Positions 6,161 through 41,495 of a stretch of 50,537 nucleotides of DNA are shown one piece after another. The notes beneath the pieces are model-generated. The model was not told the origin of the DNA. It searched no databases and worked only from the letters and a program-made list of their open reading frames with translations. The stretch is from positions 1-50,537 of the forward strand of contig JAIPDI010000040.1 of NCBI GenBank assembly GCA_021737785.1, given 5' to 3'. Origin of the DNA: Deltaproteobacteria bacterium (GTDB lineage: Bacteria; Desulfobacterota; DSM-4660; Desulfatiglandales; Desulfatiglandaceae). Position numbers and translations under genes: made by a program. How positions within the stretch are numbered: the stretch's first letter is position 1; each line of letters starts with the position of its first letter.

Positions 6161-8311
6161 ATGATATGCAGAGCATCAAAGGGTGTCTTTTCTCTTCTTT
6201 TGGCGTGGGTTTCGGCATTTGTTTTCTTAAACCAGCCGGCAACTGCAGATGACGCTGCCACACTGACCTATACCCTGAAAGCGCCGGCCTACCGTATACA
6301 AGCAATGGGCGATGGTTTCGACGCGGTCCTGATCGACGGTTATTTCTCTTATGCAGTACCAGGCTACCCTGACTTGCCATGCAGGATTTTTCGATTCGCT
6401 GTGCCCTATGACGTGAGAGCGCAACATATTGAGGTGTCATATTCTGTGAGGAGAACAGAAAATGTCGGTAAATTCAATATCAGAGAATTGCCCCCCATGG
6501 GAACGAGGGATGGCAACAGACTACTCTTGGGGGGAAAGGCTGAGGTTTATTCAAAAGACGCCTATTTTCCCCGGGAAACGATCGAATATTTGGGATTTTC
6601 CCAGATGAGGAAATGGAAATTTATCAATGTGAAATATACCCCCTTTCAATACAATCCCATGAGCAGAGAATTGAGATATATCCCTGAAGTGGCGGTGACC
6701 ATCACTTATGGTCGCGCGCCCGGCAGTTCGGCTCATGAAGCTGGACTTGCGGATGCTAAAATGGATGATAGGGCGAGACAACTCTTTGAAAACTATTCAG
6801 AAGCAACGGCCTGGTACAGACCGGTCAAAGCTGAGGCAGAACCATCTGCGGCCCATGACTATGTTATCATCACAACGAATTGGATCAAGCGCAACAGCAC
6901 AAAGCTGAGTAGCTTTGTCTTTCACCTTTCCAGCAGAGGATATTCTCCTCTAATCATAACCGAAGATGAATACGGTGGCCTGACCGGGCAATCTCCCGAT
7001 GGCACTGCCGAAAGGATACGACAATGGTTGATAAATAATTACAGCAGTTTGGGAATCATCTATGTATTGTTGATAGGGAACCCTGATCCGGATGATCCGA
7101 GCAGCGGCAGCGATTCAGTAGGAGATGTGCCCATGAAGATGTGCTGGCCGAGAAAAGGGGAAGAGTGTTTTAGAGAATCACCAATAGCCTATTTTTATGC
7201 CGATCTCACCGGGAACTGGGATCTCAACGGCGATGGGTATTTTGGGGATTATGACGGGGACAAAGGGAGTGGTGGGGTAGATTTTGCGAATGAAGTCTAT
7301 GTGGGAAGGATTCCGGTCTACTCGGGCGTCACTCATTTGGATTCGGTTTTGACGAAGACGATCAATTACGGAAATGCAACGAGTATTGACTGGAGAAAGA
7401 GCGCTCTTATGCCTATGAGCTTCTCAGACGCATCCACAGACGGGGCTCACCTGTCTGAGGCGATGATCAATAATTATCTGAATCCAACAGGTTATTCCGA
7501 ATACACATTGTACATGCAGGGCACGTATTGCAGCGCCGCCGATTCGTCCTATTCAAGTGATCAGGAGCTCTTAAACGATGTCTCCTGGCAACGGTGGCGC
7601 TACTATCCTTACGGGATGGTATGGTGGTGGGGCCACGGAAGCCAGACCGGGGCCGACATCGGATATGACGGTTGCCCCCCGTTATGGTCCCCTCGAATTA
7701 TTGAGAGCAGCGATGCTGCTGCGCTGAACGACAATTATCCATCACATGTTTATCAGTGTTCTTGTCTTAACGGTTACCCTGAAAATGCAGACAATTTGGG
7801 GACGGCCCTCCTCTACAACGGCGCCATCACAACGACCTCTGCCAGCAGAGTGAGCTGGTATGCTGTAACCCGGTGGGAGACCAGCTTGAAATATTATTGC
7901 GATAATGCAAGCATCGGGTATTATTATGGCCAGGAGTTAGTCGCTAACAGGAAGGAGGCATCCAAGGCGCTTTTTGATGTGAAGAGCGACATGGGGGCCA
8001 ATATGAATGAGGATAGCGATTGGGGTGGGAAGAGCTGGATGAATCTCTTTGATTTCAACCTTTACGGTGATCCTGCCGCGTCTATGGTGATCTCAGCCGT
8101 TTCTTCATGCCCCGATTGTCCTGCGAGTGGCATGATTACGAATGTAACATATGCCACAGGCACCACCTGTTCGTGCTCCAATGGCGCATCCATCGTATTG
8201 GGGAGCAATGTCAAAGTTGAAGGCGGCGCCACCGTGACCTTCACAGCACCGACAGTTACACTCAGCCCTGGATTTCATGCAGAAAACGGATCCACGGTGA
8301 ATATAAATTGA
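6161..8311 (+). CDS. Secreted gingipain-like cysteine protease (peptidase C25)
   Basis: A 716-residue exported protein. A signal peptide covers residues ~1-29 (cleavage near ATA-DD). A propeptide-like beta domain follows (~35-190), then a caspase-like C25 domain (~235-640). The catalytic dyad is visible: His492 in WWWGHGS and Cys535 in CSCLNG, comparable to the GHG and CVNG motifs of gingipains. The Asp-rich segment NGDGYFGDYDGDKG (~360) suggests calcium binding. The last ~75 residues carry a Cys cluster and a small beta domain ending in LSPGFHAENGSTV, like coathanger-type C-terminal domains. Proteases of this family are known from Bacteroidetes type IX secretion and occur singly in deltaproteobacteria. 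Start ATG at 6161 gives the best signal peptide. A 16-bp direct repeat brackets the gene. Confidence 0.88.
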   Translation: MICRASKGVFSLLLAWVSAFVFLNQPATADDAATLTYTLKAPAYRIQAMGDGFDAVLIDGYFSYAVPGYPDLPCRIFRFAVPYDVRAQHIEVSYSVRRTENVGKFNIRELPPMGTRDGNRLLLGGKAEVYSKDAYFPRETIEYLGFSQMRKWKFINVKYTPFQYNPMSRELRYIPEVAVTITYGRAPGSSAHEAGLADAKMDDRARQLFENYSEATAWYRPVKAEAEPSAAHDYVIITTNWIKRNSTKLSSFVFHLSSRGYSPLIITEDEYGGLTGQSPDGTAERIRQWLINNYSSLGIIYVLLIGNPDPDDPSSGSDSVGDVPMKMCWPRKGEECFRESPIAYFYADLTGNWDLNGDGYFGDYDGDKGSGGVDFANEVYVGRIPVYSGVTHLDSVLTKTINYGNATSIDWRKSALMPMSFSDASTDGAHLSEAMINNYLNPTGYSEYTLYMQGTYCSAADSSYSSDQELLNDVSWQRWRYYPYGMVWWWGHGSQTGADIGYDGCPPLWSPRIIESSDAAALNDNYPSHVYQCSCLNGYPENADNLGTALLYNGAITTTSASRVSWYAVTRWETSLKYYCDNASIGYYYGQELVANRKEASKALFDVKSDMGANMNEDSDWGGKSWMNLFDFNLYGDPAASMVISAVSSCPDCPASGMITNVTYATGTTCSCSNGASIVLGSNVKVEGGATVTFTAPTVTLSPGFHAENGSTVNIN

Positions 8312-9602: not shown

Positions 9603-11465
9603 ATGAAATGGAACACATTCTTACTGATTCTGTTCTGTGCGATTATGGTTTCCGGACCCGGAACAGCCCTGTCCCAACCTCAGCCTCCTGTGGTGACCCC
9701 GTTCGTCTCCGGGACCTGGGCCCAATTTTCCTGGACCGGGGTAAGCGGGGCAACCGGCTATACCCTTTCTTATGCGCCGAAGACCTCCACGGGCTTTGGA
9801 TCCATCGTAACCGTGGATGTGGGGATGCAAACCCGTCTGTCGGTCTACCTTTGGCCCGGAGCCGCGTATTACATGGCGGTTCAGTCTCGCGATGCTTCGG
9901 GAGTAAGTCCGTATTCCAACATCGTAGAGGTTGTCATTGAAGATCCGGGGCCGCTTTCCGGGGAGTTTCAGGTGTTTGCCTTTAATGACCTGGGCATGCA
10001 CTGCTACGACCCGGATTTTTCGGTATTCAGCATCCTGCCGCTTTACAATGTGCTGAATGCGCAGGTGATCCAAAAGGGGACGGCTCCCAAGATCATGGGT
10101 CCGGCCGTCTCGGTCACGTACCAGGCCATGGCCGATCAGACCGGCTCCATCAACATGACAAGCGCCGGCAAGACAAATTTCTGGGATTATGTCCTCCCCC
10201 TGTTCGGCGCCGATCTTCAGGTGGATGAAGGGCTCATGGGGGCCAAGATGCCGGGCATCACCAATCAACCCCAACCTCTTCCGTGGGAAGGGGAAAATGT
10301 GTATTGGTTTAGTGCCGCAGGAATTCCGATTACTTCCTTGGACGACAATTTGAACGTCAACTCCTATCCCCTGATGAATGTTAAGGCCATGGATCCTTTA
10401 AACACCGCTGTCCTTTCCTCCCTGCCCGTGGTGGTTCCCATATCGGATGAGATGAATTGCAACGTCTGTCATGCCACCGGAAATGTGGGGGCTTCCATTT
10501 CCGGCCTGCCATGGAGCGCCAATGCCAACCCGGCGATCCAGTATAGGGAAAACGTCCTGATCCTTCATGATTATAGAAACGGCACGAACCTGTTCAACAG
10601 TCAGCCGGTTCTCTGCGCCTCCTGTCACTATTCTCCGGCCCTGGACCTGACCCATGCCGGACCGGTGGGACCGCAGATAACCAACCCGACCCTTTCCCGG
10701 GCCGTACATGGATATCACGCCACAAGGACCCCTGTGGATCCACCCAGTGGAAATGCCTGTTATTATTGCCATCCGGGTGAAAATACCCAATGTGCTCGAG
10801 GGGCCATGGATACGGCGGGTCTGAGTTGTTCGGACTGTCACGGCACCCTGACCGCCGTGGGCCATGCAAACCGGACCCCCTGGACGGATCTCCCCACGTG
10901 CCAGTCCTGCCACACGGGGGATGCCCTCAACAATTATGACGGCCAGATCATTCGACGCAGGACCTATGCCGACAGCCCGGATCAGGCCACTTTTATTGTT
11001 GCAGCCAATAAGCGATTTGCCGAGCAGGCCGGGACGCTTTATCGGAACAGCGTCGGACATAACGGTGTGAGCTGCCCGTCCTGTCATGGCAGTCCCCATG
11101 CCATATGGCCTTCACGGGAAGCGAATGACAACTTGGCAGCCCTTCAGATTCAGGGTCATGACGGCATGATCACTGAATGTGCGGCCTGCCATGGAAGCGG
11201 ATTGCCCTTGACCCTTAACGGACCTCATGGCATTCACAATGTAAACAGTCAGGCATGGGTCAAGGACCATGAAGAATTCAAGTCTCAGGCGGCCTGTGGG
11301 ACGTGCCATGGTGCGACCGGAGACGGGACGGTGATTTCAAAGGCCGCGGCAGACCGAATTTTTGAGGTGGAAGATCGTATTGTCGCCATTCCCAAGGGTA
11401 CGCAGATCGGTTGCGGTCTTTGCCATGAAAATGAGCTTGTCGGGGATGACGACGACGATGATTGA
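9603..11465 (+). CDS. FN3-domain nonaheme cytochrome c
   Basis: A 620-residue exported protein. The signal peptide (1-24, ending ALS-QP) is followed by a fibronectin type III domain (~27-115), a ~165-residue region without heme motifs (begins FAFNDLGMHCYD), then nine CXXCH sites: CNVCH, CASCH, CYYCH, CSDCH, CQSCH, CPSCH, CAACH, CGTCH and CGLCH. Nine covalent c-type hemes are therefore expected, in the periplasm or on the cell surface. The C-terminus is a run of six Asp. A strong AAGGGGGAAC ribosome site precedes ATG 9603. No partner reductase or quinol oxidase is adjacent, so the redox partner is unknown. Extracellular electron transfer or respiratory electron storage are possible roles (inference). 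Confidence 0.93.
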   Translation: MKWNTFLLILFCAIMVSGPGTALSQPQPPVVTPFVSGTWAQFSWTGVSGATGYTLSYAPKTSTGFGSIVTVDVGMQTRLSVYLWPGAAYYMAVQSRDASGVSPYSNIVEVVIEDPGPLSGEFQVFAFNDLGMHCYDPDFSVFSILPLYNVLNAQVIQKGTAPKIMGPAVSVTYQAMADQTGSINMTSAGKTNFWDYVLPLFGADLQVDEGLMGAKMPGITNQPQPLPWEGENVYWFSAAGIPITSLDDNLNVNSYPLMNVKAMDPLNTAVLSSLPVVVPISDEMNCNVCHATGNVGASISGLPWSANANPAIQYRENVLILHDYRNGTNLFNSQPVLCASCHYSPALDLTHAGPVGPQITNPTLSRAVHGYHATRTPVDPPSGNACYYCHPGENTQCARGAMDTAGLSCSDCHGTLTAVGHANRTPWTDLPTCQSCHTGDALNNYDGQIIRRRTYADSPDQATFIVAANKRFAEQAGTLYRNSVGHNGVSCPSCHGSPHAIWPSREANDNLAALQIQGHDGMITECAACHGSGLPLTLNGPHGIHNVNSQAWVKDHEEFKSQAACGTCHGATGDGTVISKAAADRIFEVEDRIVAIPKGTQIGCGLCHENELVGDDDDDD

Positions 11466-31104: not shown

Positions 31105-31423
31105 CTATTCCTGGACCAGGCCGTCGATCCCGACACCCTTGAGCGATTCCAGTGCATCGGCCACCAGGCGGATGTCCTGTTTTTGGTTCAAGACGCTTCC
31201 ATGCTGCGGTGCAATTATCTCCATATCCAGTTCCTTTATCTTCCGAACGGCATGCCGGAGCGCCTTTTCACAGGGCATCACGCTTCGATGAAACCGGATC
31301 ATGTCCGGGAAAGGGCAATAGGTCTTATGGGCCGGGGTGACCCACGCCCCTGACTCAAGTGTAATCTGGAACAGCGGCCGGGAAATTCTTACAGGAATAG
31401 AAAATACCAGCTTGGACGGTTAT
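31105..31423 (-). pseudogene. 3' remnant of a metallo-beta-lactamase-fold gene
   Basis: About 105 stop-free codons without a start. The translation includes LFQITLESGAW, HKTYCPFPDM, RFHRSVMPCEKALR and EIIAPQHGSVL. The last motif, with its His, is the C-terminal metal-ligand region of MBL-fold flavodiiron/ODP-type proteins. An upstream in-frame stop lies at about 31422, exactly where the deacetylase gene ends, so the N-terminal two thirds are gone. A 65-residue frame from an internal ATG at 31302 might be called as a gene, but it lacks the catalytic domain. Confidence 0.65.
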
Positions 31424-32256
31424 TTGCAATCCTGATCCGGCGCATGGTCCCTGGTTTCGGTCACCATCACCGGCCGGCCGATGAGTTGAGACAGGGGGTA
31501 GACGGTGAAGCCCCGTTCCCTGATGCCCGATAATATCAGTTCGATTTCATTCACCCAGTGCGAAAGGGCGTCATCCGGGGGCATGGTATCGTGGAGGGCG
31601 ATAATGTCATCGGGACGGAGGCGTTTCAGGATTCTTGCAGAGAGATTTCTGATCCGGCGGTTCCCGGCATCAACGGCCCGGCAGCTGAAGTTCACCGTGT
31701 ACATCTCCAATTTTCCAAGGACCTTCCCCAGCCTGGGGTTGGTAATGCCGACTGGCGGCCGGAAGGCCAGGGGCCTGATTCCGAAGTTGTGCAAAATCTC
31801 CTGTGTAGATTGAATCTCTTTCATGAGGGTCTTGGCGCCCTTTAACATGATGAAATTGTCGTGACTGTAGGAATGGTTCCCGATGGAATGCCCCAGTGAC
31901 AGGATGTCCATAATCAGCTCGGGATGATGAAATGCCTTTTCTCCTGTCACAAAAAACGTCCCCGGGACCTGATATTTTTGAAGGAGTCGAAGCAATTCAG
32001 GGGTAGATCGGGGATCGGGGCCGTCATCAAAGGTGAGGGCCACGGCCTTTTCCCCTGATGTCCCTTTGCTCACCACGGGAAGAAAGAAGCTGAAGCGGGG
32101 TAGAAAGGGCGCCGCAACACAGAGGAGGAGATATATCCCCAGAGGCATTGCGGAGAGCCTTGGCTCCACAAAGAAGAGGAGGATGGCTGCCGCGAAGGAG
32201 ACGAATCCCGCCACATGCGCGGGGGAGAGATGGAAATCCGCTGGTTGCAGGTTCAT
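31420..32256 (-). CDS. Membrane-anchored polysaccharide deacetylase (NodB domain)
   Basis: A 278-residue protein. Two hydrophobic helices (~14-60) are followed by a carbohydrate esterase 4 domain: TFDDGPD (Asp77, Asp78), metal ligands His128 and His132 in NHSYSH, FRPPVG, and C-terminal ALHDT. These residues bind the metal and catalyse N- or O-deacetylation of glycans. The active site probably faces the periplasm. It lies downstream of the RND-methyltransferase gene on the same strand, across a 153-base low-complexity gap, so it may modify a glycan or glycolipid handled by that locus (inference). Confidence 0.88.
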   Translation of the reverse strand: MNLQPADFHLSPAHVAGFVSFAAAILLFFVEPRLSAMPLGIYLLLCVAAPFLPRFSFFLPVVSKGTSGEKAVALTFDDGPDPRSTPELLRLLQKYQVPGTFFVTGEKAFHHPELIMDILSLGHSIGNHSYSHDNFIMLKGAKTLMKEIQSTQEILHNFGIRPLAFRPPVGITNPRLGKVLGKLEMYTVNFSCRAVDAGNRRIRNLSARILKRLRPDDIIALHDTMPPDDALSHWVNEIELILSGIRERGFTVYPLSQLIGRPVMVTETRDHAPDQDCK

Positions 32257-32360: not shown

Positions 32361-32432
32361 CAAGTTCTCTTACCCTCTCACCTTCTTACCCTCTCACCCT
32401 CTCATCCTCTTACCTTCTCACCTTCTCTTCCT
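32361..32432. repeat. Polypyrimidine tandem repeat
   Basis: Degenerate 9-18-base units of the type TCTCACCCTC/TCTTACCTTC repeat for ~70 bases. The unit GAGAAGGTAA on the minus strand provides the last codons and stop of the RND-methyltransferase gene. Confidence 0.7.
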
Positions 32433-35400
32433 CGCGGGCCTTTCCAATGAACCATACGGATTCCTCGTTGGATTGGAGCGGTCTTACGGGTTCGCAGGCG
32501 AATCCCCCATTAACGATCATCTCCTTGATCTTTTCAACAGATCTGAAGTATGCCGGTGTCCTGGATATCCACATCTTTATGGCCTGGACCTTCCACATGA
32601 AGGAGCCGCTTTTCAGCGGCCGAATAACGGCCCTGACCACCAGAATGCCGTCACGGCCAAGTTTACTGCGGATGTTCTCCAGGGTTGCCCGCAAGTCCTC
32701 ATCGTTCAGGAAATGGATCACATCCAGAATAATGGCCGCATCCGCCGGCTCCGGGGGCGTGGGGACATGGGGCGCGTTGCCGCATTGGACTTCCCCCCGT
32801 CCGCCAATGGCAATGGAGGCCACCCTCACCCTCTCGGGATCGGGGTCAATTCCATAGACCTTTGCCCTGGGATACCGTTCAAGAAGCCAGCATGCAGGGA
32901 CCCCGTAGCCGATGCCGATATCGATGATGGTTCCGACCGCACGGGAAGGATCAAAAAAGCGGGGCAGATCTGAAAACATCGGGTCGATCATGAGTTTGAA
33001 ACGCGCAAACAATCTGTAATAGGGTTCCATTTGTCTGTATCGTCCCAGGACGGGATCGGAATTTTTTCCAAGGGTCTCGGGGTTTCCTGCCCCGGCCCGG
33101 AACAGATGGTTCAAGAGGGGCGGCAATATGAGAAACGCGCCGATGAGGGCATAGCTGATTCCGAGAAGGGATGTCACCCCCGCGCTTTTCAGCATCGAAT
33201 GCTCGGCAAACACCAGGGCGGCAAACCCGATGATGGTGGATGCGGATGCCATGAACACCGTCATCCGGATGAGTTGGAAGGAAGGATGAGAGGCATCCCC
33301 GTATCGCTGATACGCCCTGACGATGAAGAGGGAATAATCGATGCCCATGCCCACAACCACGATGGACAGCATAAGCCCCGGTATATCCAGCGGGTGTCCG
33401 ATGAGGTTCAGGGTCCCTAGGGTACTGACCAGGGCAAACAGGATGGGTAAGAGGGATACGAACGTGAGTTTCCAGTCGAGGAAAAAGAGGATGAGAAGAA
33501 GAATGACACTTACCCCTACCACCACCAGCATCTTGGTGAATGTGGAGAAGAGGAGATTTCCCATCCTCACGGAAAAGAGGCCCGGATCAAATATCTTTCC
33601 GAAAGCGCTGTATGCGGTGTAGAATTTCTCACCATTATAGGAGTCGCCGGGCGTGAAACTCGACACCTGGATCCATCCATGGCCGTCGTCTCTCTTTGCG
33701 ATGCCAAGAAGGTCCAGCAGGTTTTCGGGAATATCCGTGGATCCCGGCTGAGACGGGGGACTCAGGAGCATCTCATAGAAAGGCGCGAACGCATCGGCGG
33801 TAAACCCCATGTCGGATGTTACGGAAAACCCCTCTTTCAATTCCGCAATCCTGCCGGGATTCCAGAATCGGGTCCATGCCTCCAGATTTTCTTTGCTGCG
33901 CGCCTTGCCGGGAAAAACCATCGAGGGAACAAACCCGGAGAAAATCACCCGGGTCGCCATATCCGTTTCCACGGCCCGGAGCAGCCTGTCTCCCGTGGTC
34001 TGAATATCTTCGACGCTTTCTCCCTCTGTCAGCAGGAATGTTTTTTGGAATATGTCGGTTCCCCACACCTTTGACACCTCTGTTTCAGCGGCAGCGGTGT
34101 CCTCGGAGACCGTATTCATGGCATTCAGATTTACATTGAATTCCGGCTTTGCAAAAAAAAGCATGCCCCCGGCGAAAAGGAGTGCGGCAATTGCCCCGGG
34201 TTTCCCCAAAGAAAATAACGTCTCCACAACAGGGCGGAGGGGAAGACCCCTGGGTTTTGCAGGGGGCATGGAGGGGAGGATCATCGGAAAAACCGTATGA
34301 ACGAATATGAATGAGAATGCAATGCCGAATGCGGTGAACTGGCCGATCTGTTCAAACAGGGGAAATCCGGAGAGACTCAGGGCCCCGAAAGCGCCGATGG
34401 TGGTCAGGGCGGCCAGCAACCCGACGGCGCGTATCTCTCCTGAGGCCTCTTTGCCGGATGTGGCATGGGGCTGATCCAGAAACAGGAGAAAGGCGATGGC
34501 ATGATCCACGGTGATGGAGATGACCGCTGCGCCGAATCCCAGGACCATGATGGAAATTGAGTTGTGGAGGATGGAGAAGAGAAAAAACGCGGCCACGGTC
34601 CCGGCGATTGCCGGCAGAAAGGCAAACAGACCCAGCAGCGGTCTGGGAAAGCCGAGGATGAGGAGGAGCGAGATGCCCGCCGTTACCAGGAGGATCGCCT
34701 TCCGAACATCTTGTTTCGCGATGATCTCGTTATCCAGGGCCGCCCGGTATGCGCCGACCGGGGTGAAGGTGATGCAGTTCTTTTTTTCAGGGCAGTCTCT
34801 GCGGATCTGAGCTTCTATGGTTTCAAACAGATCCGCCAGTTTTCCTGCAAAGGCGGTATCGGTGCTGGAAACCTTCGGATGGGTGACCAGGAGGAGGTGC
34901 TTTCTGTCAGGGGTCATGATTTTACCCCTGTATATGTCGATCTCCTGCAGCGGCGCAAGATGGGAGAGCCTGGCCAGGACCAGATTTTTCAGCCCCAGAG
35001 GGTCTGTTGAGATGAATTGGGCTTGACCGATTCCTCCCAGGCTGTGCAATTCGGTTTGAATGTCTTTCAGCCGCTTGCGTATGGCGTCCCCTTCCAGCAG
35101 GGGGGTCACCTTGTCGTGGAGGTCCTTTTCCGTGAACAGGACCGGCAGACGGTTCGCGATATGGGTGATCAGTTGGGGCATGAGGCGTTGAAAATTTTCC
35201 GTCCCCACCTCCTCAAAAAGCCCGCTCGCCTTCAGCTTTTGCTCCACCTGTTCGCTGAATTCGACAAGGGTATCCGGGTCTCCTTCGGGATGTCCGATAT
35301 CAATGATGAGCCGGTCCAGTGTAGGATGGTTCCTGAAAACATATCCCGCATCTGAGATCACCGGATCTTTCCTGGGAAGATAACGGGTGATGTCCGTATC

Positions 35401-35493
35401 TATCTCGATCCGATACAGGGCGGCAATGAAAAGGCCTGCTACGAGAACCGATGATAGAATCAATGCACGAAAATTAATGGTGATGGATTTCAT
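32410..35493 (-). CDS. RND/MMPL-family exporter fused to a SAM methyltransferase
   Basis: A 1027-residue fusion. Residues ~1-800 are an RND exporter of the MMPL type: N-terminal helix, a periplasmic loop (~35-245), five to six helices with the conserved GFGAAVISITVDHAIAF segment, a second periplasmic loop, and a second helix block with GMGIDYSLFIVRAYQ. Residues ~815-1027 are a class I methyltransferase with motif I IDIGIGYG (~856) and acidic GIDPDPERV. Exporters of this type move lipids or lipid-linked products. The four-base ATGA overlap with the glycosyltransferase stop makes them an operon. The stop codon lies inside a pyrimidine repeat. A single frame spans the junction, so this is a true fusion, not two genes. 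Confidence 0.88.
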   Translation of the reverse strand: MKSITINFRALILSSVLVAGLFIAALYRIEIDTDITRYLPRKDPVISDAGYVFRNHPTLDRLIIDIGHPEGDPDTLVEFSEQVEQKLKASGLFEEVGTENFQRLMPQLITHIANRLPVLFTEKDLHDKVTPLLEGDAIRKRLKDIQTELHSLGGIGQAQFISTDPLGLKNLVLARLSHLAPLQEIDIYRGKIMTPDRKHLLLVTHPKVSSTDTAFAGKLADLFETIEAQIRRDCPEKKNCITFTPVGAYRAALDNEIIAKQDVRKAILLVTAGISLLLILGFPRPLLGLFAFLPAIAGTVAAFFLFSILHNSISIMVLGFGAAVISITVDHAIAFLLFLDQPHATSGKEASGEIRAVGLLAALTTIGAFGALSLSGFPLFEQIGQFTAFGIAFSFIFVHTVFPMILPSMPPAKPRGLPLRPVVETLFSLGKPGAIAALLFAGGMLFFAKPEFNVNLNAMNTVSEDTAAAETEVSKVWGTDIFQKTFLLTEGESVEDIQTTGDRLLRAVETDMATRVIFSGFVPSMVFPGKARSKENLEAWTRFWNPGRIAELKEGFSVTSDMGFTADAFAPFYEMLLSPPSQPGSTDIPENLLDLLGIAKRDDGHGWIQVSSFTPGDSYNGEKFYTAYSAFGKIFDPGLFSVRMGNLLFSTFTKMLVVVGVSVILLLILFFLDWKLTFVSLLPILFALVSTLGTLNLIGHPLDIPGLMLSIVVVGMGIDYSLFIVRAYQRYGDASHPSFQLIRMTVFMASASTIIGFAALVFAEHSMLKSAGVTSLLGISYALIGAFLILPPLLNHLFRAGAGNPETLGKNSDPVLGRYRQMEPYYRLFARFKLMIDPMFSDLPRFFDPSRAVGTIIDIGIGYGVPACWLLERYPRAKVYGIDPDPERVRVASIAIGGRGEVQCGNAPHVPTPPEPADAAIILDVIHFLNDEDLRATLENIRSKLGRDGILVVRAVIRPLKSGSFMWKVQAIKMWISRTPAYFRSVEKIKEMIVNGGFACEPVRPLQSNEESVWFIGKAREEEKVRR

Positions 35494-36200
35494 TTGTGTG
35501 ACAGTGCCAGCATGCCGATAAGGAGGATCACGACAAAGATATGGATTCCGATGATGAGGGTCTTGTTAAGATGATAGAATTCGTTCATCTTCTGTAAACA
35601 CTGAAGTCCCCCGCACATTCTCCTGAATCTGTCCAATGGGAGATACCTCTGGTTGTCTGAACGGGAATTGCTCTGAAATGCAAAAGACGGATAAATTGCG
35701 TAAAAACGGTCCTCCTTCAAGTCGCGCAGCATATCGTCAAACGGCACCTTCTGCCAGGGGACGGTCACCAGGTGTCTTGCGAAGCGGGGGTTCACCACAT
35801 AGGCGTGACACAGGCTTCGGAACCGGACATGCAGAACGGATCGGTTTGCTGTTCTGCTGCTCTGTTTGACCATGCATCCCAGGAACAATATGTTCCAGTC
35901 GGGTTGTTTGGATATGAAATCGATGGCGTTTTTGAGGGTCTCAGGCCTGAACCGATCGAAACAGATATCATCTTCAAAGATGACCATGTTGGCGGCCCCT
36001 GCCTGGAGCCCTTTTCTCATGCAGCGCATATGGGATTCATAGATCCCCTCTTCACAGTCAAAAGGATGCTTGTGGACCAGGACGAATTCGACCTTGTCCG
36101 CCAGCCCCACTGCCCTGAACTGTCCCTGGGCCTCTTCCCGCCGGTCCGGACGTTCAATCAACGAAATACAGTAGATTTTGTCAAAATACTCCCAGTACAC
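35490..36200 (-). CDS. GT25-like glycosyltransferase with C-terminal membrane anchor
   Basis: About 236 residues. IYCISLIERPDRRE at the N-terminus, NMVIFEDDICF (Asp-Asp pair) and AYVVNPRFARHL match glycosyltransferase family 25 (LPS/lipooligosaccharide-type). A hydrophobic C-terminal helix (KTLIIGIHIFVVILLIGML) anchors it in the membrane, which is not usual for GT25. The GTG at 36200, with GGAG eight bases upstream, is preferred because the family fold begins right there; the frame stays open to an ATG at 36341 but the extension is not protein-like. It is the first gene of the minus-strand operon. Confidence 0.78.
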   Translation of the reverse strand: MYWEYFDKIYCISLIERPDRREEAQGQFRAVGLADKVEFVLVHKHPFDCEEGIYESHMRCMRKGLQAGAANMVIFEDDICFDRFRPETLKNAIDFISKQPDWNILFLGCMVKQSSRTANRSVLHVRFRSLCHAYVVNPRFARHLVTVPWQKVPFDDMLRDLKEDRFYAIYPSFAFQSNSRSDNQRYLPLDRFRRMCGGLQCLQKMNEFYHLNKTLIIGIHIFVVILLIGMLALSHK

Positions 36201-36739
36201 GGCAGATTCTCCGTCACTGTTCCTCCCGCACCCAGGTCCCCCAACCGGACGTAATCGGAGATGAGAGCCGCCTTTAACGGGCCCTTCTTGTGAAAAAACT
36301 TGATTGTTCAACGGCGATTGGCTTAGACTCTTTTTTTGCAACTTCTACGCAATGAACACCCCTGAGGGGACCCCGGTTCAACGAAGCAGGCGAAGGACCC
36401 CTTGGACGCTATGCCTCCGGAAAAGGAGATTCGGGATCCTGGAGCATCTCGTTGATCGTTTTGAGAATGAATTTTGATGGTCTTGTAAAAAGTCAGGAAA
36501 TGTCATTTTTCGTCATTCCGGCGAAAGCCGGAATCCAGTCCCGCAATAGCGGGATTCAATCAGTTACAAAACCTCTGGACCCCGTTTTTCAACGGGGTGA
36601 CGACTTTTTACGAGACCATCAATTTTGAAAGAAAACAGGAAACACGCACAGGCATGGTTTTACATAGTTCCATGAGAGAATTCAACCCAATTTCGGTTGG
36701 GTCTTTGATTTGGCGATCTTCTGAAAAACGACGGAAATC
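36201..36739. other. Divergent control region of the lipid/glycan locus
   Basis: It separates the minus-strand GT25/RND set from the plus-strand ketosynthase set and should contain both promoters. A MITE-like palindrome (36474-36622) fills its centre. I see no strong promoter pair outside it. Confidence 0.5.
36474..36622. repeat. MITE-like palindromic element
   Basis: Terminal inverted repeats of ~21 bases: TTGATGGTCTTGTAAAAAGT at the left and ACTTTTTACGAGACCATCAA at the right, one mismatch. Inside are three hairpins: TTCCGGCGAAAGCCGGAA, TCCCGCAATAGCGGGA and CCCCGTTTTTCAACGGGG. The first is the REP core seen at 14510 and 45163. Confidence 0.8.
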
Positions 36740-37114
36740 ATGAACCGGCTAATGGAAAAACTCCTGACAAGAATCGCGGGGACCAGATTCGTCCGCACTG
36801 CAATGGAAGAGGGGGCCGATCTGAGCGCCTTTCGCCAAAGGCCGAGTCCCCGAATGATTGTGGGCATATCGGCCATAGGCATCAGCTACATTATCGGATG
36901 GCCCGCGGTGGGCCTGCTGGGAATCCTCTCCCTTCATCTGCATGAGCCCCTGATCGTGGCCATCGGCGGTCCCATGACTTATGGATTGTCCCATGTGGTC
37001 TTTATCCTCGGGATGTATCTGGCCGGCGCCCAGTATGCGAGGATATTTTTCCGGTGGGCCACACGGGTGGCCATGGAGAGACTGACGGGTCATCACAAGG
37101 GGCTTGACGGTTGA
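36740..37114 (+). CDS. Small membrane protein of unknown function
   Basis: A 124-residue protein with a charged N-terminal helix, two to three membrane segments (~40-65, ~70-110) and a basic C-terminus. The stretch GISAIGISYIIGWPAVGLLGIL and the later HVVFILGMYLAG are strongly hydrophobic. I do not recognise a family. It is the first gene of the plus-strand set, with the ketosynthase starting within ~30 bases of its stop, so a membrane role in the same pathway is likely (inference from context). Confidence 0.7.
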   Translation: MNRLMEKLLTRIAGTRFVRTAMEEGADLSAFRQRPSPRMIVGISAIGISYIIGWPAVGLLGILSLHLHEPLIVAIGGPMTYGLSHVVFILGMYLAGAQYARIFFRWATRVAMERLTGHHKGLDG

Positions 37115-37142
37115 CAGGGACTTCCGCAAAGATGAAGCGCCG

Positions 37143-38288
37143 ATGAGATCCGACCCTGCCCAGGCGTGGATCGTCCACCTTGCCGCAGTGACCTCTCTGG
37201 GCGGCAGCCTTCAGGAACTGTGGGAGAGGCTCCTGGCCGGGCAGACCGCCATCAGACCGGTGTCCAGATTTTCTACGGCCGGGTACACGTCCGATGTTGC
37301 GGCCTGCATCCCCGATCTGGCTTCCGTGGCCGGGAAATCCATGATGCACGATCTGCTCCATCGACTGGCACAGGAGATCGGACCGGTGCCGTCAGACGCC
37401 TTTCTCATCACTGCAACCACCAAGGGAGGGATAGACAGCCTGGAAAGATTACAGCGGGGGGGCTGTGCCGATTACCGGGATCTCCTCCTTTCCTCCCTGC
37501 CGGAAATCCTGGGCCGTCGCCTCGGGCTGAAACATGCGGGCATCAACATCAGCGCGGCCTGTGCCTCCTCCACCATCGCCGTGGCCAGGGGGGCGGCCAT
37601 GATCGCTTCGGGCATGAGGGATGCGGTGCTGGTCTGCTGTGCGGATCTGGTGACCGAATTCGTGTTTTCGGGCTTCTCGTCATTGGGCGCGTTGTCCCCT
37701 GTCCCCTGCATGCCGTTTGACCGGAGACGGCGCGGGATGTCTCTGGGGGAAGGCGCGGCATCCCTCCTGTTGATGAGCCGGGACCGGGCCCGTAAGGAGA
37801 ACAGGCCTGCCCTGGGAAGAATCCTGGGATGGGGCGCAGCCAACGATGCCTCCCATATTACTGCCCCGGCAAGAGACGGCTCGGGTCTGATAAAGGCCGT
37901 CACAGGGGCCCTGAAACAGGCGGGGCTGGCCGCGGAGCAGATATCCGCCGTCTGCGCCCACGGTACCGGGACGGTTCATAATGACGCCATGGAATTGACC
38001 GCCTTCCATCGGGTGTTCGGCAACCATACGCCCCCGCTGTTTTCCGTAAAAGGCGCTATCGGCCATGCCCTGGGGGCGGCGGGCGGCATTGAAGCGGCCT
38101 TGGGCGCAAAGGCCCTTTCCCGGCAGACGGTACCTCCCACAACGGGATTTCTGGAACCGGAAACCGGCGCAGAAGGATGGGTGCACGGGGATCCTGTGCG
38201 CATTTCCGGCGACTGTCTCCTGTCTACCAATTCGGGTTTCGGCGGCATAAATGCCGCCATTATCCTGGGGAAGGGGACCCCCGAATGA
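37143..38288 (+). CDS. Beta-ketoacyl synthase (FabF-like)
   Basis: A 381-residue ketosynthase with the full Cys-His-His set: Cys140 in SAACASS, His273 in CAHGTGT and His308 in GHALGAAGG, plus the closing NSGFGGINAA. It should condense acyl-ACP with malonyl-ACP. It is shorter at the N-terminus than FabF and diverged from fatty-acid enzymes. ATG 37143 gives a sensible N-terminus; a TTG at 37104 in frame overlaps the preceding gene. It ends in a four-base overlap with the chain-length-factor-like gene, a pairing known from aryl polyene and type II polyketide systems. Confidence 0.9.
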   Translation: MRSDPAQAWIVHLAAVTSLGGSLQELWERLLAGQTAIRPVSRFSTAGYTSDVAACIPDLASVAGKSMMHDLLHRLAQEIGPVPSDAFLITATTKGGIDSLERLQRGGCADYRDLLLSSLPEILGRRLGLKHAGINISAACASSTIAVARGAAMIASGMRDAVLVCCADLVTEFVFSGFSSLGALSPVPCMPFDRRRRGMSLGEGAASLLLMSRDRARKENRPALGRILGWGAANDASHITAPARDGSGLIKAVTGALKQAGLAAEQISAVCAHGTGTVHNDAMELTAFHRVFGNHTPPLFSVKGAIGHALGAAGGIEAALGAKALSRQTVPPTTGFLEPETGAEGWVHGDPVRISGDCLLSTNSGFGGINAAIILGKGTPE

Positions 38289-38998
38289 CCGCTGCGGTCA
38301 TTGGTATGGGCTGGATAACCGCCGCCGGGATGGGACCGGGCGGTGACCGGAAGGGGTTTGCCGTGACAGCCGGTGAATTGCCGCGACTCGCCCGAAAACG
38401 GGTTTTGGATACCCCCTGCCCGCACTTTGGAAGGATGGACGACCTGTCCCGGCTGGGCCTGGCAGCCATCGGATTTGCGTTGAAGGATGCGCACCTGGCC
38501 GAATGGACACAACCGCGGGATATCGGCATTATTGCTGTCAGTGTCTGCGGGTGTCTCCGGACTGACATGGACTACTTCGAGACAGTGATGCCGGACGGGG
38601 GGCGGATGGCCAGCCCGGCCCTCTTTTCCTATACCCTTCCCAACGCTTTTTTGGGTGAGGCGGCAATATGTTTCGGACTTACGGGGACCGGTTACGTGAT
38701 CAATGACGCTTCTCCTTCAGGGCTGGCCTGCCTGCATGCCGCTCTGGAGGGCATTGCCGGTGGTGAGGTGGAAAAGATGGTCTGCGGGTTCTGCGATCCG
38801 GGGTGTCCCCCTGAATTTTTCCTGCCCGTCAAAGGCCCTGCGGGCGCCCTCTTTTTTGTACTGGAAAAGGTTCCGGAAGACGGCCGGTCATCCTACGGGA
38901 CCCTCCGTCTCGACAGACGCGGCAGGGTCTTTTTCAACGGGGAAGAGATCGAAACCCTGGTCCAACTGGGCCACGCATGTTCGACGCCATCCCATTAA
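38285..38998 (+). CDS. Chain-length-factor-like half ketosynthase (PF13723 type)
   Basis: A 237-residue protein equal to the N-terminal half of a ketosynthase. At the active-site position it reads NDASPSGLACLHAAL, with Ser143 where a ketosynthase has Cys, and no HGTGT/GHxxGAAG half follows. This length and the missing Cys are typical of the beta-ketoacyl synthase chain-length-factor family found beside ketosynthases in aryl polyene clusters; it probably forms a heterodimer with the upstream enzyme and sets product length. It overlaps the ketosynthase by ATGA. Confidence 0.8.
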   Translation: MTAAVIGMGWITAAGMGPGGDRKGFAVTAGELPRLARKRVLDTPCPHFGRMDDLSRLGLAAIGFALKDAHLAEWTQPRDIGIIAVSVCGCLRTDMDYFETVMPDGGRMASPALFSYTLPNAFLGEAAICFGLTGTGYVINDASPSGLACLHAALEGIAGGEVEKMVCGFCDPGCPPEFFLPVKGPAGALFFVLEKVPEDGRSSYGTLRLDRRGRVFFNGEEIETLVQLGHACSTPSH

Positions 38999-39002
38999 TA
39001 AA

Positions 39003-39815
39003 ATGGTCTCCTTGAATCCATCCCCTCCCGTTTCCGGTTTGCAGGCGACCCCGTACGGGGACCGGCCGGATCCGGCCCGGATCAAAATCCTCATTGTCAT
39101 ACCGGTATACAATCACGCTGCCACCCTTCGAAACGTTGTCATAGAGGCGCTTCAGATCCACAAGGAGGTATTGGTTGTGGATGACGGCAGCATTGATGAC
39201 GCTGCAGGCCTGCTTCAGGGCCTCAACATGCACCTGATCCGTCATCCCCGAAACCTCGGCAAGGGCGCGGCCATTATCACCGCCACCCGGGAGGCGCGAC
39301 GATTGGGGATGACCCATATTGCGACCATTGACGCCGACGGCCAGCACAACCCCAAGGAGTTCAAACGATTTCTTCCTTTGATAGAGGAAGCGCCGGATGC
39401 CGTTATCGTTGGGAAGCGCGATTTCGAACATGCGGATGTTCCCCGTGCAAATCAATTGGGAAGGGGGATTTCCAACTTCTGGCTGAGGCTCCAGACCGGA
39501 AGGAATCTGGGAGATGCACAGAGCGGTTTTCGCGTCTACCCCTTATGGGTCCTGGAAGGGTTGAAACTGGTTGAAAAACGCTACACCTTTGAGATCGAGG
39601 TGCTGGTCAAGGCGGCCTGGGCCGGTGTTGAATTGCTGGAAACGGATATTTCGGTCTATTATCCCCGGGGAGAGGCGCGGGTTAGTCATTTTCACCTCTT
39701 TTGGGACAACCTTCGGCTCAGCCGGCTCAACGCCAAGCTTACCCTGAGATCCATTCTTCCCTGGCCGCACCGGAAGCTCTTGGATCATCGAAAAAACGGG
39801 TCTGCTGCAACGTAG
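39003..39815 (+). CDS. GT2 glycosyltransferase, dolichol-phosphate mannosyltransferase type
   Basis: A 270-residue GT-A enzyme: VIPVYNHAATL (~34), VVDDGSIDD (~58), and the DXD-like TIDADGQHNP (Asp110/Asp112), followed by VGKRDF and DAQSGFRVYP. These match DPM1/DPG-synthase-like GT2 enzymes that move a sugar to a lipid phosphate. It has no multi-span membrane block. ATG 39003 lies four bases after the previous stop, so it belongs to the same operon. A GT2 is a common member of aryl polyene-type clusters, often fused there to an acyltransferase that is missing here. Confidence 0.9.
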   Translation: MVSLNPSPPVSGLQATPYGDRPDPARIKILIVIPVYNHAATLRNVVIEALQIHKEVLVVDDGSIDDAAGLLQGLNMHLIRHPRNLGKGAAIITATREARRLGMTHIATIDADGQHNPKEFKRFLPLIEEAPDAVIVGKRDFEHADVPRANQLGRGISNFWLRLQTGRNLGDAQSGFRVYPLWVLEGLKLVEKRYTFEIEVLVKAAWAGVELLETDISVYYPRGEARVSHFHLFWDNLRLSRLNAKLTLRSILPWPHRKLLDHRKNGSAAT

Positions 39816-40061: not shown

Positions 40062-41495
40062 ATGCGAATCGTACTTGTTCATCCCGCCGGGTCCAACTGG
40101 GTGCCGGGAAAACGGGATATCACGCCAACAGCCAATCGGATGGCGCCGCTGGGTCTCCTCTCCATCGCCGCGTTCCTCGAAAGGAGAGGGCACCGGGTAT
40201 TTGTCCACGACTGCCTGGGGCCCGGGGCCCCTCAGGGAAATGCGGCCAACGCCCGGATCATCCTCGACCATCGTCCCGACATGGTCGGGTTTTCCGCGAC
40301 CACATCCGGATTCCTTGACGGGTACGCGCTTGCAACAATGATCAAGGAGGCCGTGCCCCGGATCCGGACGGTGTTTGGCGGGGTGCACATCTCTGCATTA
40401 GGCGCCGCCATCCTTGAGGACTACCCCAACATCGATTTCCTCTGCCCGGGCGAAGGGGAGGGGACCCTGGAAGCCCTTGCATCCGGGGAGGACCCTCACC
40501 AAATGGAGGGTCTTATTTTCAGGGATCACGGCCATCCCGTAACCAACCCGCCCAGGGCCCACATCCCTGACATGGACGCGCTCCCGTTCCCGGCTTATGA
40601 AAAACTGGCGGGCTTTCCAAAGGGGTACAACCTCCCCCTGTTCAGCTACATCCTGGGACCCGGCGCAACCATGATCACCAGCAGGGGATGTCCCTATCAA
40701 TGTTCATTCTGCGACCGGTCCGTCTTCAAAAAGGGGTATCGCTACAACTCGGCCGAATATATCTATGAGCACATGAAATACCTGGGGACGCGTTTCAAGG
40801 TCCGTCATATCAATATCTACGACGACCTGTTCACGGCCCACCGCCGGCGTATTCAGGAACTCTGCGACCGTCTCATCAGAAGACCTCTGGGCATGCAGTT
40901 CAACTGTGCGGTGCGGGTAGGGCATGCGGATGATGACCTGCTGCGAATGCTCAAAGATGCCGGATGCCTCCAGGTCTCAGTGGGGATCGAGAGCGGGGAT
41001 CCTCAGCAGATAGAGGTTTTAAAGGAGGGGGTGAGCCTGGAAGCGGTGAGGGATACAGTGAGACGTATCCAGGCGACGGGGCTCAGGGCAAAGGGGCTGT
41101 TCATGATGGGGCTCCCCGGAGATACGGAGGCCTCGATCCAGAGGACCGGCGACTTTGTCATGTCGCTTGGGCTCGACGACATGAACATGTCCAAGTTCAC
41201 GCCGTTTCCCGGGGCGCCCGTCTGGTCCACCATATTCGAACAGGGGACGTTCGACAATGACTGGCGCAAAATGAACTGCCTCAACTTTGTGTTCGTGCCA
41301 AAGGGGATCGGGTCAAAAGAACGGCTTGACGAACTTTACAATCGATTTGTCAAAAGGTTCTATTCAGATGAGGGCTGGCGCAGGAGATTTCGCGGAAGGC
41401 TATGGCAGCACCGAAGGAGCCTCTGGCATCTTCTTGTCCACCTCCCGACGTTTCTGGCGGCCAAGCGCAACTTCGAACCCACAGGAGAAGATTAG
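40062..41495 (+). CDS. B12-binding-domain radical SAM protein
   Basis: A 477-residue class B radical SAM enzyme. Residues ~1-140 are a Rossmann-like cobalamin-binding domain (MAPLGLLSIAAFLERRGH, VGFSATTSGF, FGGVHIS). The radical SAM cluster motif is Cys210-x3-Cys214-x2-Cys217 in GCPYQCSFC, and VGIESGDPQQI is the typical SAM-binding strand. Related enzymes are methylases, BchE-like cyclases and hopanoid modifiers; the substrate cannot be told. The lack of a clear DxHxxG means base-on/His-on cobalamin ligation is not expected. It follows the GT2 gene by 246 bases in the same direction and may modify the product of the ketosynthase locus. Confidence 0.9.
   Translation: MRIVLVHPAGSNWVPGKRDITPTANRMAPLGLLSIAAFLERRGHRVFVHDCLGPGAPQGNAANARIILDHRPDMVGFSATTSGFLDGYALATMIKEAVPRIRTVFGGVHISALGAAILEDYPNIDFLCPGEGEGTLEALASGEDPHQMEGLIFRDHGHPVTNPPRAHIPDMDALPFPAYEKLAGFPKGYNLPLFSYILGPGATMITSRGCPYQCSFCDRSVFKKGYRYNSAEYIYEHMKYLGTRFKVRHINIYDDLFTAHRRRIQELCDRLIRRPLGMQFNCAVRVGHADDDLLRMLKDAGCLQVSVGIESGDPQQIEVLKEGVSLEAVRDTVRRIQATGLRAKGLFMMGLPGDTEASIQRTGDFVMSLGLDDMNMSKFTPFPGAPVWSTIFEQGTFDNDWRKMNCLNFVFVPKGIGSKERLDELYNRFVKRFYSDEGWRRRFRGRLWQHRRSLWHLLVHLPTFLAAKRNFEPTGED

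Follow-up and report, generated by a model that had tools for sequence, protein, structure and literature searches.

We analysed a stretch of 50,537 nucleotides from a Deltaproteobacteria bacterium (the window; GenBank assembly GCA_021737785.1, contig JAIPDI010000040.1, positions 1 to 50,537 of the forward strand), which encodes an RND/MMPL exporter and a methyltransferase (MT) in one polypeptide. According to the open reading frames (ORFs) of the window, the fusion gene is a single uninterrupted frame of 1027 codons on the minus strand (32410..35493), read from the ATG at 35493 to the stop codon at 32412-32410. The 1027-amino-acid product matches the Pfam families MMPL at residues 654-798 (29.9 bits, cut-off 20.5) and Methyltransf_25 at residues 856-949 (46.8 bits, cut-off 27). 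A first-pass annotation, made from the letters alone, had proposed an exporter and a cytoplasmic S-adenosylmethionine (SAM) methyltransferase in one chain, which the Pfam domains, the single frame and the predicted topology bear out; its coordinates, sizes and IDIGIGYG motif also stand, and the strand, which it had left unstated, is the minus strand. Relatives with the identical domain order share 75, 72, 53 and 53% identity across the full length. Within the genome of the window the fusion is the sole full-length match, and three further matches are weak and cover the exporter part only. Since the domain order recurs in relatives at 53-75% identity and both halves are under purifying selection, the frame is genuine; a chance frame or an assembly join in the window is ruled out on the same grounds. 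The fusion is thus a genuine and conserved variant of a known exporter family.

The exporter part comprises residues 1-802 (33088..35493, minus strand) and was assigned to the ApeM type based on Pfam MMPL, AlphaFold2 helices, hhalign and Foldseek. The AlphaFold2 model of the fusion, built from 33 sequences, has a mean predicted local distance difference test score (pLDDT) of 85.2 and a predicted template modelling score of 0.76. It contains 12 long helices, which are the predicted transmembrane (TM) helices: 8-28, 248-281, 285-309, 315-339, 347-374, 378-400, 430-445, 637-671, 674-697, 704-731, 737-761 and 766-802. Two large loops of the periplasmic type come after TM1 and TM7, as in RND/MMPL (HAE3-type) transporters: PD1 (residues 30-247; 34753..35406, minus strand) between helices 8-28 and 248-281, and PD2 (residues 446-636; 33586..34158, minus strand) between helices 430-445 and 637-671. 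Averaged hydropathy is consistent with the 12-helix topology. Also, positive charge is greater in most of the predicted inside loops, and nine lysine and arginine residues are found at positions 797-856, past the last helix. The even number of helices puts the C-terminus on the side of the N-terminus, away from the large loops; the two large loops of RND transporters are periplasmic, so the MT is predicted to be cytoplasmic, and a periplasmic location is not the outcome. A flexible linker (residues 803-813; 33055..33087, minus strand; pLDDT below 50 at 803-808) joins the two parts. Asp330 in TM4 (34504..34506, minus strand) and Asp719 in TM10 (33337..33339, minus strand), which we take to be the RND proton-relay positions, are each an aspartate in 81 of 81 aligned rows.

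Concerning the family of the exporter, the transport part aligns with ApeM of Escherichia coli O157 (ECs_4336, L109) over 565 columns (hhalign 99.1%, E 1e-18), and BLAST of this ApeM against the collected loci gives matches only in the family of the fusion (F0). The top fold matches of the whole model in Foldseek are HpnN (5khn) and MmpL4/5. Membership of HpnN was considered and rejected, the NCBIfam equivalog models scoring far below their cut-offs (43.3 bits vs 751.85; 19.9 vs 1100). These sequence comparisons group the exporter with ApeM, its counterpart in aryl-polyene clusters, and a lipid is its predicted substrate.

The MT domain comprises residues 814-1020 (32434..33054, minus strand), as defined by Pfam, by structure matches and by a model of the domain by itself (METHYLTRANSFERASE; pLDDT 90.8), which shows a plain core of ~210 residues without a long insert. 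SAM motif I, IDIGIGYG, is located at residues 857-864 (32902..32925, minus strand), and D858 is found in 77 of the 81 aligned rows. The intact motif I and the modelled Rossmann-type fold identify a class I SAM methyltransferase, with predicted activity. The structure matches are small-molecule methyltransferases of N-, O- and C-methylating kinds. His927 (32713..32715, minus strand; H in 72/81 rows), in a conserved ‘DMxHYL’, falls on the histidine of ‘LLLHDW’ in LaPhzM (6c5b); this motif histidine of the PhzM-type O-methyltransferases is presumably the catalytic base. The MT also matches PF00891, the family of the PhzM-type O-methyltransferases (24.8 bits, cut-off 22.3), and two copies described below (G086 and G005) score slightly under the cut-off. 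The Pfam scan of the fusion found no N-terminal dimerisation domain of the PF00891 type, which is present in ApeB. The retained motif histidine makes methylation of a hydroxyl more likely, and the sequence leans towards an O-methyltransferase.

The distribution of the fusion was examined in a scan of species genomes with two short peptide patterns, which also covered other phyla and from which 80 of 111 confirmed stretches were kept. An MT with the motif-I aspartate follows the exporter in 76 of the 80 loci (70 complete single frames and six cut by contig ends); the possibility that all relatives are separate genes is therefore not the case. Based on NCBI ranks derived from record titles, the loci comprise 53 of Thermodesulfobacteriota, 19 of Myxococcota, two of Pseudomonadota and six unranked; the Myxococcota label stems from titles saying only ‘Deltaproteobacteria bacterium’ and was not used. 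The fusion is also present in records not marked as metagenome-assembled genomes: NaphS2 (L042), Desulfogranum mediterraneum (L091), Desulforhopalus (L061) and Desulfatitalea alkaliphila (L078). Among 41 genomes (that of the window and 40 relatives), 31 have some match, mostly weak and to other RND proteins; five full-length fusions are found, including the window, plus a fusion cut by a contig end in G003. A sample of 395 genomes of the phylum, at a match threshold of E 1e-40, yielded 55 genomes with a match. A full-length fusion is found in 26 of these, one of them with an internal TGA; three are special cases (a split pair in G086, an MT on a degraded exporter in G005 and a gene cut by a contig end in G173); and 26 have no match to the MT region, among which G082, G085 and G390 are partial and G225 has its own arrangement. 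Using an MT profile on 32 selected genomes, we found the MT in five (G005, G049, G078, G086 and G225), and neither in the 26 with an unfused exporter nor in G173 with its cut gene.

Two frames of this sample deserve separate mention. The fusion of G078 (L154:7886-11020, plus strand) is broken by one TGA between the exporter halves, which is either a pseudogene or a sequencing error. The 1323-amino-acid frame of G311 (L158) looked like a triple fusion with the upstream glycosyltransferase, and this was rejected: the first ~300 residues are an overlapping wrong frame, and the first 290 are touched by just two rows, both fusion proteins matching from near residue 270.

For the exporter tree, rows with fewer than 600 exporter residues were left out. 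FastTree, run on 100 exporter sequences, places the 82 fusion-type rows, the exceptions and G086 among them, in a single group (local support 100) and the unfused exporters outside it; the domain states need six changes on this tree vs a mean of 21.6 after shuffling. Similarly, IQ-TREE on the C-terminal half (45 rows) groups the 26 fusion-type rows with support 100, and G225 lies outside the fused clade, adjoining it at 84% support on a long branch; G225 may represent an ancestral state or have arisen by a separate fusion. Because the fused exporters form one well-supported clade in two methods, we consider that there was one main origin, followed by losses and one fission, plus G225. Over 2775 pairs, identity averages 51% in the exporter and 45% in the MT (correlation 0.82). 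In the 14 closest pairs, which are not all independent, the ratio of non-synonymous to synonymous substitution rates (dN/dS) is 0.08-0.21 for the exporter and 0.19-0.52 for the MT, with all values below 1. Both halves are maintained by selection, the MT somewhat more loosely.

Directly upstream of the fusion, a gene for a GT25-like glycosyltransferase (35490..36341, minus strand; Pfam GT25 28.7 bits, cut-off 24) overlaps its start by four bases, and downstream lies a polysaccharide deacetylase gene (31420..32256, minus strand; Pfam E 7.5e-30). The plus-strand genes on the upstream side encode: a 124-amino-acid membrane protein with no Pfam family (36740..37114), a ketoacyl synthase (37104..38288; Pfam; its family F3 matches ApeO/ApeR), a second, short ketoacyl-synthase-like protein with only the N-terminal domain in Pfam (38285..38998), a GT2 glycosyltransferase resembling the N-terminal half of ApeJ (39045..39815; Pfam E 2.7e-22; family F15) and a B12-binding radical SAM enzyme (40062..41495; Pfam) with relatives in many related clusters (family F6 in 20 loci). 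A protein similar to the 124-residue one is found in related clusters (family F4 in 31 loci); the window's own copy lies outside the F4 clustering, an antisense frame having been taken there.

Across the 80 loci (in three of which the gene caller assigned no exporter gene to the fusion family), the nearest upstream family is the GT25-like one in 43 and the glycosyltransferase half of ApeJ in six, and the nearest downstream family is the polysaccharide deacetylase in 45 and the acyltransferase half of ApeJ in nine. The window follows the GT25-like/deacetylase pattern. With the aryl-polyene cluster of E. coli O157 as yardstick, BLAST ties neighbour families of the 80 loci to ApeO/R, ApeK, ApeE, ApeJ (in two halves), ApeD, ApeI, ApeH and ApeQ, and finds no ApeB match among these families at E 1e-4. 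Another contig of the window genome (C24) carries dehydratases, acyl carrier proteins (ACPs), ketosynthases, a radical SAM pair and a polyketide-synthase-dehydratase-like gene. Core genes of aryl-polyene synthesis thus accompany the exporter in the window (the ketoacyl synthase, the similar short gene and the GT2 gene), as Ape relatives across the loci and, further, on C24. The neighbours resemble aryl-polyene and ladderane-type lipid clusters.

Other genes are reported here as separate observations. One locus of the set encodes a FakA/DegV-type fatty acid kinase fusion protein (L102:7439-9169, plus strand), whose family F18 is found in nine loci, beside the exporter or in its cluster. The window also contains a 716-amino-acid ORF matching Propeptide_C25, the gingipain-type propeptide, with no other Pfam domain (6161-8311, plus strand), an MtrC/MtrF-like multihaem cytochrome with a fibronectin III domain (9603-11465, plus strand) and two adjacent ORFs at the contig end (48497-50459, minus strand), which by eye we take to be an IS91-type transposase and a tyrosine recombinase.

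The sequences and models show that the two domains are fused and conserved, among which genes they lie, that 12 helices are predicted and that the SAM motif and the relay aspartates are intact; from the gene context and the fusion we infer the substrate and the coupling of methylation to export. The reading we favour, by a modest degree, is that of an ApeM-type exporter for a lipid made by a type II fatty acid synthesis (FASII) pathway of the aryl-polyene/ladderane type, with the pathway's tailoring MT fused to its cytoplasmic C-terminus. Methylation by the tethered MT, more likely of a hydroxyl, would take place on the cytoplasmic membrane's inner face and modify the lipid or its head group; the finished lipid would then enter the attached exporter and cross by proton-motive force. 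The fusion would raise the local concentration and favour export of the finished product. The retention of the arrangement across many sulfate-reducer-type bacteria points to completion of the lipid at the exporting pump.

Several observations weigh against this reading, above all where it is taken to mean strict coupling. The dN/dS of the MT is mostly above that of the exporter in the close pairs, and the O-methyl assignment is only a lean because N- and C-methylating enzymes are also found among the fold matches. In 26 of the 32 selected genomes a relative of the exporter occurs and no MT of this family was found, so the MT is not required for export as such. One locus (L075) encodes an exporter of 812 amino acids without an MT, the next gene beginning ~70 bases further, and two others (L106 and L107) keep the tail without a Pfam methyltransferase match and contain decayed MTs. 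All three exporters retain the relay aspartates, and export is therefore possible without a recognisable MT. In G086 the two halves are split; the free MT gene shares four bases with the gene of an ApeJ-type glycosyltransferase, a detail in favour of the reading above. The protein of G005 is a 556-amino-acid remnant (L021:7392-9062, plus strand) inside a full cluster on a large contig; TM1, the two large loops and the two relay aspartates are gone from its exporter while its MT is intact, which indicates that the MT serves a purpose even where its own chain does not export. In these five cases one of the halves is missing, degraded or encoded separately, so the first-pass suggestion of a coupling between methylation and the export of the same lipid stands as a conjecture and fails as an obligatory link. 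Taken together, the exceptions are consistent with an exporter that has a tailoring station on its cytoplasmic side, and they speak against methylation and transport being strictly locked to each other. The functions of the two halves are linked yet separable in evolution.

The same exceptions also speak for the most probable alternative, in which the exporter is a mere membrane anchor for an MT of the same pathway, and methylation and transport proceed without mechanistic coupling. The intact MT on the dead, shortened exporter of G005, the loss of the MT from L075, L106 and L107 with their relay aspartates kept and the split pair of G086 all favour an anchor. However, the fusion is intact in 76 of the 80 loci, and G225, an exporter of the wider family, carries a PlsC-type acyltransferase and a methyltransferase in one chain (L168:8715-11399, minus strand, with the N-terminal half on L169:2115-3395, plus strand), which speaks for more than a single anchoring accident. 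We regard the anchor as possible, though doubtful.

The G225 protein is encoded in a cluster with aryl-polyene core genes, and no further exporter–PlsC–MT protein was found among the 395 genomes. In another locus an HtrB-type lipid acyltransferase replaces the MT on the exporter (L102:9911-13399, plus strand), and the nearest relative (L082) has the MT. Fusions of the exporter with lipid-assembly enzymes thus recur, which supports the favoured reading, and an extension of it can be put forward as a speculation to which we give a low probability: the C-terminus of the exporter would be a docking place for lipid-finishing enzymes (an MT in most members, the acyltransferases in the two just named, with an MT besides in G225), and the methyl group would be a release mark, so that only finished lipid is loaded. 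The logic is comparable to that of the methylated chain ends which control O-antigen export.

The gene context bears on what is methylated. In a second alternative, somewhat less probable than the anchor, the MT places the methyl group on a head-group sugar of a glycolipid and not on the polyene or aryl moiety. The GT25-like and deacetylase genes which flank so many of the fusions fit this, as does the presence of the sugar methyltransferases TylM1, CalS10 and KedS8 among the structure matches listed; other members, however, have ApeJ-type GT2 and acyltransferase genes as neighbours and no deacetylase gene there.

We consider it unlikely that the MT acts earlier, on an ACP-bound acyl chain, by C-methylation as proposed for AmxMT1, with the exporter tail docking the synthase in the manner of MmpL7–PpsE. 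ACPs and ketosynthases are present in the clusters, methylation of acyl-ACP has been proposed for AmxMT1, a methyltransferase of the anammox FASII clusters (PMC9821293), and MmpL7 has been proposed as a scaffold for synthesis enzymes (PMC1238737, in excerpt). On the other hand, the fused MT is a plain core lacking a long insert, and the MT profile matched 58 PDB sequences at E 0.001 without the AmxMT1 entry 8HD2 among them, which gives no support to their identity and is not a disproof. Finally, most relatives are metagenome-assembled genomes, but an annotation or assembly artefact is refuted by the same frame in the 70 complete loci and in records not so marked, and its probability is negligible.

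In the open-licence papers searched, we found no published description of an exporter–MT fusion; the accessible text of PMC3924187, searched for ‘methyltransferase’ and ‘fused’, contains nothing about one. Whether lipid synthesis is physically coupled to export has long been asked, in mycobacteria with regard to MmpL7. A one-chain exporter–enzyme with lost, decayed, swapped, split and exporter-dead versions, together with named isolates, makes such coupling directly testable. The fusion also places a step of transport plus tailoring in the aryl-polyene and ladderane-like lipid clusters that anaerobes carry and that are still poorly understood.

Among known systems, ApeM shares the RND/MMPL architecture and a transport part alignable by hhalign, and its cluster is similar in that the exporter is accompanied by a ketosynthase, ACP, glycosyltransferase/acyltransferase, thioesterase and dehydratase; unlike the fusion of the window, ApeM has no MT. 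HpnN and the mycobacterial MmpL lipid transporters, the best fold matches to the exporter, presumably lack an MT domain as well. In the E. coli cluster the methyltransferase, ApeB, is a separate gene and is proposed to tailor the lipid head group (as given in part of PMC8253772). ApeB belongs to the same fold superfamily as the fused MT (hhalign 90.9%, E 1e-6), but it has a dimerisation domain and an aspartate at the position of His927, whereas the fused MT lacks that domain and keeps the histidine. The pigment cluster of Azoarcus sp. BH72, as described in an excerpt of PMC3949708, includes a methyltransferase, a polysaccharide deacetylase and an exporter among arcM, arcN and arcP; by gene content this is the trio of the window, but in separate genes. 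The FASII clusters of Kuenenia and Desulfotalea, candidates for ladderane or polyunsaturated-lipid synthesis, contain radical SAM enzymes, extra ketosynthases and a ligase, and also a membrane protein with a lipid-transport domain, a polysaccharide deacetylase and an odd SAM methyltransferase (sections of PMC2649909). The gene mix of C24, with its paired radical SAM enzymes, resembles these clusters by their described content; the methyltransferase Kuste3347 is listed as its own gene, with no fusion mentioned in those sections. For synthesis that is coupled to export, MmpL7–PpsE is one case in the literature (PMC1238737).

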